In this document: positions 60,700 through 63,518 of the stretch, in pieces
Layout: every line of letters starts with the position of its first letter
How positions within the stretch are numbered: position 1 is the stretch's first letter
NCBI RefSeq assembly: GCF_023169965.1
Contig: NZ_AP025592.1
Coordinates: 2,542,001-2,606,000 of the forward strand
Length of the DNA stretch: 64,000 nucleotides
Origin: Anaeromyxobacter paludicola
GTDB lineage: Bacteria; Myxococcota; Myxococcia; Myxococcales; Anaeromyxobacteraceae
Reading direction: 5' to 3'
Position numbers and translations under genes: made by a program
The notes under the pieces: generated by a model
What the model was told of the DNA's origin: nothing
Database searches by the model: none
The model's input: the letters and a program-made list of their open reading frames with translations, nothing else

Positions 60700-60834
60700 G
60701 GGAGCCGGGTTATAGCCCAGCCGGAAGCCCCCGGTCATCACTGTCCGGCGCTTCCCCGACCCCCCGCTCCGGGGTACAAACGGGCCCACGGCACACGTCC
60801 GCGGGGGCCGTCGCCCCCGGCCGCTGGAGGCCCC

Positions 60835-62403
60835 TTGAACTACCCGGTCTGGCAGCTCGAGATGGGAGGCGGGCTGCTCATCGCGCTCGTCGCCGTCACC
60901 CACGTCTTCGTCTCGCACTTCGCCGTGGGCGGCGGGCTCTTCCTGGTGATGGCGGAGCGGCGGGCCTACCGCACCCAGGACGCCGGGCTCCTCGACTGGC
61001 TCCGGCGCCACGCCCGGTTCTTCGCCCTCCTCACGCTCGTGTTCGGGGCGGTCTCCGGCGTCGGGATCTGGTTCACCATCGGCCTCGTCCACCCCGCCGC
61101 CACCTCGGCGCTCATCCACGTCTTCGTGTGGGGCTGGGCCATCGAGTGGGTCTTCTTCTTCGTCGAGATCGCGGCGGCGGTGATCTACGCCTCGACCTGG
61201 GACCGGCTCGACCGGCGCACCCACCTCGCGGTCGGCTGGATCTACTTCGTCGCCGCCTTCATGAGCCTCGTGGTCATCAACGGCATCCTGGCGTTCATGT
61301 TCACGCCGGGGGCCTGGCTCGACCCGGCGACGCGCTCCTTCTGGACCGGCTTCTTCAACCCCACCTACTTCCCGCAGCTCCTCGTCCGCACGCTCGCGGC
61401 GGTGGCCTTCGCCGGCCTCTACGTCTTCGCCACCGCCTGGCGCGCGCCGCTCGCCGAGCGCCCCAAGCTCGCCCGCTACGCCGCCCTCTGGGCGCTCCCC
61501 GCCACCCTCGCCGGCCCGCTCGCGGCGGTGCTCTACCTCCAGGCCGCCCCCGGGGCGAAGGACCTGGTGTTCGGCACGGCGATCCCCGGCGCGACCCACT
61601 CGTTCCGGATGGTGATCGGGTGCGCCGTGCTCTACGGCCTCCTGCTCGCCGCGGTGGCGCTCCTCGCGAGGCGCCGGCCCGGGATCGTGTCGCTCCCCAC
61701 CGGCGTCGCGCTCCTCGTCCTCGGATACGGCTCGATCGCCGGCGCCGAGTTCGTGCGCGAGTCGATCCGCAAGCCCTACGTCATCGGCAACCCGCAGGCC
61801 GGCTACCTCTACGTGAACGGCCTCACGCCGGCCGACACCGCCCGCGCGCAAGCGTCCGGGCTCCTCGCCGAGGCCCGCTGGGTGAAGGGCAAGGACGGCG
61901 CGCCGCTCGCCGGCGCCGAGCGCGGGGCCGAGGTGTTCCGGGTCGCCTGCCGCGGCTGCCACTCGCTCGCGGGCTACCGGCCCATCCGCAAGTACGTGGA
62001 CGGCAAGCCGGTCGCCGCCATCGCCACGATGGTCGGCCGGCTCGACAAGCTGCGCGGCCGGATGCCGCCCTTCCCCGGCGCCGCCGACGAGGCCCACGAC
62101 CTCGCCCTCTACCTCGGCGGCCTGGACGGCGAGCTCGAGCCGCAGGAGCCGGCCCCCGGCGGCGCCAAGGTGGCCGACGCCAAGGCGCTGCTCCAGGACA
62201 AGTGCCTCGCCTGCCACGACCTCGACGGCAAGGGCTCGAACCCGCTCCGGCCCAAGGTGAAGGGTTGGAGCGCCGCGGTGGCCTACGAGAAGCTCGGCAA
62301 GCTCTCTCAGCTCAACGCCGGGATGATGGGCATGGACGTCACCGACGAGGCCGAGCGCAAGACGCTCGCCGGCTACCTCGCCACCCTGGCCACGGAGAAC
62401 TAG
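60835..62403 (+). CDS. Cytochrome bd-superfamily oxidase subunit I with C-terminal dihaem cytochrome c
   Basis: This 522-residue membrane protein begins with a CydA-like helical core: H23 and H28 in [18 protein letters not shown], then [18 protein letters not shown] with E104 and E111, which resemble the haem-site and proton-path glutamates of CydA. A periplasmic C-terminal part carries two c-type haem motifs, CRGCH (C372-H376) and CLACH (C457-H461). Such fusions are known from genome surveys as bd-family members that probably take electrons from cytochrome c. There is no recognisable long Q-loop. The TTG at 60835 has a GGAGG site; no ATG gives the first helix in full. It is 2 nt upstream of its partner subunit. 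Confidence 0.8.
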
Positions 62404-62405
62404 AG

Positions 62406-63518
62406 ATGAACGAGCCGCTCGTCTTCCCGGCCGTGGACGCGATCCCGCTGCCCGCGCCGGTCTGGCTGCTCCAGGTCTTCCTCACCCTCTGCTTCACGCT
62501 CCACGTCGTGCCGATGACCGTGACGCTGGGCGGCGGCTTCTGGGCGCTCGCCGCTCGCGCCAAGGGGGCCGACCCCGCGTTCGCCGCGCTCGCCCACCGG
62601 ATGGGCAAGTGGCTGCCGTACTGGACCGCCGCCGCGGTCACCACCGGCGTGGCCGCGCTGCTCTTCCTGCAGGTGCTCTATGGCCCGGCGTTCTACGCGG
62701 CGAGCGTGCTCATGGCGTGGCCGTGGCTCTCGGTCGTCGCGCTCGTGCTCGTCGGCTACTACGGCTACTACTTCCGCGCGTACCGCGACGAGCAGAGCCC
62801 GCGGGCGGCGTTCGCGGTGGGCGCGGTGGCGTTCGCCGCCTTCCTCGCCGTCTCGTTCCTCTACTCGAACGTGATGACGCTCATGATCGCGCCGGCCCGC
62901 CACTACCGCATGTACCTCGCGGACGCGGGCGGGACCTGGCTCAACCTCGCCGACCCGACGCTCGGCGCGCGCTGGCTCCACATGGTGCTCGGCGCCGTCG
63001 CCATCGGCGGGCTCTGGGTGGCCGCGCTCGGCGCGCTCGCGGTGAAGCGCGGCGAGGAGGACGCGGGTCGCAAGGTGCTCGCCTTCGGCGCGCGCGGGTT
63101 CGCGCTCGCGACGCTGGCCGAGGTGGTGAGCGGGTTCTGGTTCCTGGCGGCCTTGCCGCGGGACCAGAAGGTCCTCTTCATGGGCGGCAGCGGGCGCGCG
63201 ACGGGCTACCTCGTCGCCAGCCTGCTCCTCACCTTCTCGGTGGTGCTCATCGCCTTCCGGGCGCCCGGCAAGGCGCAGCCGCTCCGCGCCGTGATCTCCG
63301 CCGCCGGCCACGTGCTCGCCGTGATCGTGCTCATGATCGCCATGCGCGGCGCCATCCGCGCCGAGGCGCTGCGCGGCGTGCTCGAGCTCTCTTCCATGAG
63401 GGCGGAGCCGCAGTGGGGGGTGATCGGGATCTTCCTCGTGCTGCTGGTGGCCGGGCTCGGCACGGTGGCCTGGATGCTGCTTCAGGTGCGGCGGGCGGCG
63501 CCGGAGGGGGCGCGGTAG
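62406..63518 (+). CDS. Second membrane subunit of the c-haem bd-type oxidase
   Basis: This 370-residue protein has about nine predicted helices ([51 protein letters not shown] and others) and no cofactor motif. It resembles the CydA-related or CydB-like partner found next to c-haem-fused subunits of the bd superfamily. His in [13 protein letters not shown] is at the place of an N-terminal haem-ligand His, so a duplicated CydA-like core without the fused cytochrome is possible. It starts 2 nt after the upstream stop and must be co-translated. Confidence 0.7.

Follow-up and report, generated by a model that had tools for sequence, protein, structure and literature searches.

A CydA-like subunit with fused cytochrome c domains and its CydA-like partner in Anaeromyxobacter paludicola: a probable cytochrome c-fed member of the bd superfamily

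Introduction

Can the oxygen-reducing site of a cytochrome bd oxidase be fed by cytochrome c rather than by quinol? This question is raised by two adjacent genes, here termed SU-I and SU-II, in the window (the whole stretch of 64,000 nucleotides analysed here) from the complete 4.59 Mb chromosome of A. paludicola. Later papers divide the bd superfamily into the groups qOR, OR-C and OR-N; a quinol site is conserved in qOR alone, and cytochrome c or some other donor is presumed to serve OR-C and OR-N (PMC13189123, PMC8509429, PMC10839748). The OR-C family is that of Murali, Gennis and Hemp 2021, as cited in PMC13189123, PMC11707229, PMC10839748 and PMC8509429, and OR-C profiles are already in use for genome surveys (PMC11707229). 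According to a 2021 review, every characterised bd enzyme is a quinol oxidase (PMC8509429), and a survey of 2015 that did encounter cydA fused with c-type cytochromes discarded these chimaeric genes as not being proper bd oxidases because they lacked cydB (PMC5322542). Our literature search found no biochemical study of the family to which SU-I and SU-II belong.

Results

The gene pair

The features of the locus are as follows.

60835..62403, forward strand: SU-I, TTG start, 522 amino acids; CydA-type core of 8 transmembrane (TM) helices plus two fused c-type cytochrome domains
60835..61788, forward strand: SU-I membrane core, residues 1-318; superposes on CydA TM1-TM8, without a Q-loop and without equivalents of H186 and M393
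Within 60835..62403, forward strand: SU-I active-site residues H23, E104, E111, S144, E309 and R312
61948..61962, forward strand: first haem-c motif, CRGCH, SU-I residues 372-376; both the motif and the likely axial ligand Met410 are invariant across 50 aligned relatives
62203..62217, forward strand: second haem-c motif, CLACH, SU-I residues 457-461; variable across the family, whose SU-I proteins carry 1, 2, 3 or 8 motifs
62406..63518, forward strand: SU-II, 370 amino acids; CydA-like paralogue with 9 helices; H33 and H192 invariant, no active-site Glu, no Pfam or NCBIfam family

A GGAGG sequence lies upstream of the SU-I start codon, and the ATG of SU-II follows the SU-I stop by 2 nt. GC content at third codon positions is 99% in both frames, from which we conclude that both are real genes. 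The second polytopic subunit that a preliminary description of this DNA had placed 2 nt behind the first is thus present, with nine long helices in its structural model.

SU-I retains the active site of bd oxidases

The N-terminal half of SU-I matches the CydA family (PF01654, 4e-18). Its AlphaFold model (mean pLDDT 86.7) comprises eight long helices followed by the haem-c domains, and superposes on CydA of E. coli, Geobacillus and mycobacteria with Z-scores of 28-31 over approximately residues 6-328, so the CydA-like core proposed from the letters alone is borne out by both profile and fold (Z about 30). The superposition ends where TM9 would start; because it spans these residues only, TM9 has been lost and the haem-c domains come directly after TM8.

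In bd oxidases, H19, E99 and E107 (E. coli CydA numbering) form part of the two-haem catalytic site. SU-I residues H23, E104 and E111 align with these three, respectively, and in a phmmer comparison with solved structures they stand opposite H21, E101 and E108 of Geobacillus thermodenitrificans CydA (5doq_A, numbers read off the alignment); the two glutamates are 7 positions apart as in Geobacillus, compared with 8 in E. coli. When 83 SU-I sequences were aligned with 37 CydA sequences, equivalents of E. coli H19, E99, E107, S140 and R448 were found in every SU-I, and that of E445 in 82. The preliminary description had singled out E104 and E111 together with a histidine pair, H23/H28. Both glutamates and H23 do fall on the bd haem site, in the alignment as well as in the model, but H28, although conserved in 80 of the 83 sequences, matches no known haem ligand. 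A role as ligand is not supported, since no CydA ligand aligns with it and it is replaced by Gln in 3 tandem copies. The latter come from loci of the Ignavibacteria/Bacteroidota (L033, L044 and L053) in which two tandem SU-I genes precede a single SU-II; both copies possess the active-site residues, and the Gln is found in the first.

Genuine cytochrome c domains follow the core

Behind the core of SU-I lie two Pfam cytochrome c domains (PF13442, 1.7e-12; PF00034, 1.3e-7). As the CRGCH and CLACH motifs sit inside these statistically supported domains they are not chance occurrences, and their initial reading as haem-c sites in the tail of SU-I stands. In profile comparison with solved chains SU-I matched CydA (5doq) as well as cytochromes c that are either free or linked to oxidases, and no solved structure of the SU-I/SU-II family was found. 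The end of TM8 is periplasmic in CydA, and c-type haem is attached on the periplasmic side of the membrane; we infer that the haem-c domains of SU-I are periplasmic.

The quinol and b558 sites are absent from SU-I

In the alignment with the 37 CydA sequences, the haem b558 ligands H186 and M393 are gone from all 83 SU-I proteins, the commonest residues at these positions being F/A/I/V/T and A/G/S/L/V, respectively. In all 83, gaps take the place of the quinol residues K252 and E257 and of the Q-loop, and the AlphaFold model has a loop of only about 13 residues (238-250) between TM6 and TM7. The lack of an evident Q-loop, first remarked for the A. paludicola sequence, extends to the whole comparison set, and a search of the N-terminal core for a conserved quinol site found none.

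These losses bear on the simplest alternative, namely a canonical CydAB quinol oxidase to which haem-c domains have been added. SU-I does match PF01654, and the fold of canonical CydAB (E. coli bd-I, 6rx4; Geobacillus, 5doq) is shared by SU-I residues 6-328 and by SU-II, with the equivalents of H19, E99, E107, S140, E445 and R448 kept in SU-I. However, SU-I differs from the canonical subunit in lacking the quinol residues, the b558 ligands, the Q-loop and TM9, its partner is not CydB, and in a phylogenetic tree the SU-I clade stands apart from quinol CydA with support of 100/100. We rejected a canonical CydAB identity on the missing quinol and b558 residues and the missing CydB, and consider such a derivation highly improbable.

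SU-II is a second CydA-like subunit

The SU-II model (pLDDT 94.4) is closest to CydA (5doq_A, Z 31.9 over 350 residues, 3.1 Å), with CydB chains scoring below CydA in Foldseek. Profile comparison relates SU-II to SU-I with an E-value of 2e-14 and to CydA with 9.7e-6, while the A. paludicola protein itself reaches only 0.027 against PF01654. None of the 53 SU-II members matched a Pfam or NCBIfam family at 1e-3, and no solved chain matched the SU-II profile. SU-II is therefore a CydA-like paralogue and not CydB, an identity that we rejected because the protein is homologous to SU-I, has its best fold match in CydA and does not match PF02322 (CydB); in the host genome PF02322 matches adjoin only the two other CydA genes.

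SU-II lacks both active-site glutamates, V110 and G117 standing opposite SU-I E104 and E111, and has H33 at the H23/H19 position (alignment read by eye); in the profile alignment with CydA, H192 falls exactly on H186. Residues H33, R189, H192, M310, R314 and R318 are invariant in all 53 SU-II sequences. Given that SU-I is devoid of H186 and M393 equivalents while SU-II keeps H192 and H33 throughout, we tentatively entertain, as a possibility rather than an expectation, that the electron-accepting haem of ordinary bd oxidases might have moved to SU-II. The pair could then form an oxidase of two paralogues in which one subunit takes up electrons through haem c and the other houses a b-haem; electrons might enter by two routes, one from cytochrome c and one from the membrane. 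To our knowledge this layout of haems has been seen in no solved bd oxidase.

The same invariant H33, H192 and R189 could alternatively bind a b-type haem close to the membrane surface in a quinone-linked redox complex that is no oxidase and connects the quinone pool with periplasmic cytochromes, electrons moving in either direction. A published proposal assigns such a role to the bd-like proteins of nitrite oxidisers (Nitrospina, PMC3578206), the core fold is distantly common to ACIII/NrfD membrane subunits (Z 16-19), and in some relatives multihaem c7/c3-like modules have been fused on. The O2-site residues H23, E104, E111, E309 and R312 are all kept, however, and simple electron transfer would not require them; SU-I also offers neither a Q-loop nor a known quinol residue, so that we regard this role as unlikely.

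Distribution and locus variants

The family scan confirmed at least 503 relatives, of which 80 are listed, and our comparison sets comprise 83 SU-I, 53 SU-II and 81 loci. Among the matches listed, relatives occur in Acidobacteriota, Calditrichota, Ignavibacteria (Ignavibacteriota/Bacteroidota), Desulfobulbales, Geobacterales and others. Within the phylum of the host, SU-I was found in only 5 of 195 genomes; in the tree the A. paludicola protein groups beside that of a congener and, weakly (82/72), near Acidobacteriota. SU-II adjoins SU-I in nearly all loci listed, exceptions being mostly contig ends, and no further gene is widely shared with the pair among the 81 loci, whose neighbours give no indication of the electron donor.

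Several loci depart from the A. paludicola arrangement. In five (L075, L078, L086, L091 and L015) SU-II comes first, followed by an SU-I with a long C-terminal multihaem part of 8 CxxCH motifs that matches Cytochrome_C7/c3 or MtrC/F-like Pfam families, a bd-like core being joined here to a multihaem cytochrome. At a proS-adjacent site (equivalent to window positions 60705-62403), L173/L017 (G053) has an SU-I that is devoid of the ligand-bearing helices and has kept both haem-c domains; at this site other family relatives (L165, L169, L175, L181 and L164) possess a small free-standing cytochrome c with one haem, similar to the terminal haem-c domain of A. paludicola SU-I. Either an oxidase has been eroded here or a local cytochrome c has been fused on. 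Lastly, an Acidobacteria genome (G197, locus L109) encodes a 629-amino-acid protein with a modest PF01654 match, followed by a gene with at least 2 CxxCH motifs; the two may represent a bd-like oxidase whose cytochrome c is a subunit of its own.

The taxonomic spread brings in a further alternative, in which the pair reduces NO or peroxide or scavenges trace O2, serving detoxification in largely anaerobic bacteria and not respiration. Desulfobulbales and Geobacterales are groups rich in anaerobes, the pair stands alone without conserved respiratory neighbours, and the host genome encodes other terminal oxidases. Yet the active site is of the O2-reductase type and the neighbourhood bears no sign of NO or peroxide metabolism, and we judge a detoxifying function to be decidedly unlikely.

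Respiratory context of the host

The host genome also contains two CydAB quinol oxidase pairs and, in the COX1 family, one aa3-type oxidase and two qNOR-like proteins (L159 and L160), the types being assigned by eye. This genome yielded no bc1-type cytochrome b. Beside the aa3 oxidase lies an ACIII-like cluster with pentahaem ActA-like, ActB-like and NrfD genes; a source of reduced cytochrome c therefore probably exists, and ACIII could be the complex that supplies it. The window itself begins with a reverse-strand gene (75-923) for an NrfD/PsrC-like membrane protein (PF03916, 3.8e-40).

Discussion

Our preferred reading is that the pair is probably an OR-C-type oxygen reductase of the bd superfamily, reducing O2 with electrons from a periplasmic cytochrome c or other periplasmic redox protein. 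It builds on four observations: the active-site ligands are kept, the quinol and b558 sites are lost, the cytochrome c domains are genuine and the pairing with SU-II is near-constant. In the scheme that we envisage, electrons would come from reduced cytochrome c, or from a different redox protein of the periplasm, and enter SU-I at its haem-c domains. The first of these would pass them to the two-haem site held by H23, E104 and E111, where O2 would be reduced to water. SU-II would sit where CydB sits in the canonical enzyme, and probably binds one or more b-type haems. Against a cytochrome c-fed oxidase we count that several host groups are largely anaerobic, that A. paludicola already possesses an aa3 oxidase besides two bd oxidases of the quinol type, that only quinol-oxidising bd enzymes have been characterised (PMC8509429), and that chimaeric cydA without cydB has been judged improper (PMC5322542).

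SU-I combines bd ligands in a CydA-type helical bundle, the absence of a quinol site and a CxxCH motif on the CydA-type subunit; a haem-c-binding CxxCH in this place is what we take to be the defining feature of OR-C. As far as the family descriptions in citing papers go, the pair fits the published OR-C branch. Compared with those descriptions it shares a two-haem bd site without a quinol site, the bearing of c-haem and, presumably, cytochrome c as the donor, with no difference evident. The cydA-cytochrome c fusions of the 2015 survey (PMC5322542) likewise have a CydA-like core, C-terminal c-type cytochromes and no cydB; in contrast to fusions dismissed for that lack, SU-I is adjoined in nearly all loci by the CydA-like SU-II. 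The OR-N/CydAA' enzymes (Nitrospirota and Nitrospinota; archaeal CydAA') resemble the pair in that OR-N is also without a quinol site and in probably consisting of two superfamily paralogues, a pairing that SU-I and SU-II display (2e-14; Z 31.9). The bd-like protein of Nitrospina, however, is described as having 14 helices, three of them replacing the Q-loop (PMC3578206), whereas SU-I has 8 helices and fused haem-c domains. Relative to OR-C as cited in later papers, the present analysis adds a CydA-like partner that is nearly constant and has two invariant histidines.

A family that has retained the O2 site while lacking the quinol site, and that is spread over many phyla, is therefore a natural test of a cytochrome c-driven bd active site, which would bear on energy conservation. 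SU-II is the least explored part of the pair and, as a constant partner outside the Pfam and NCBIfam families, provides, together with SU-I, a clearly delimited target of two genes for expression and structure determination.
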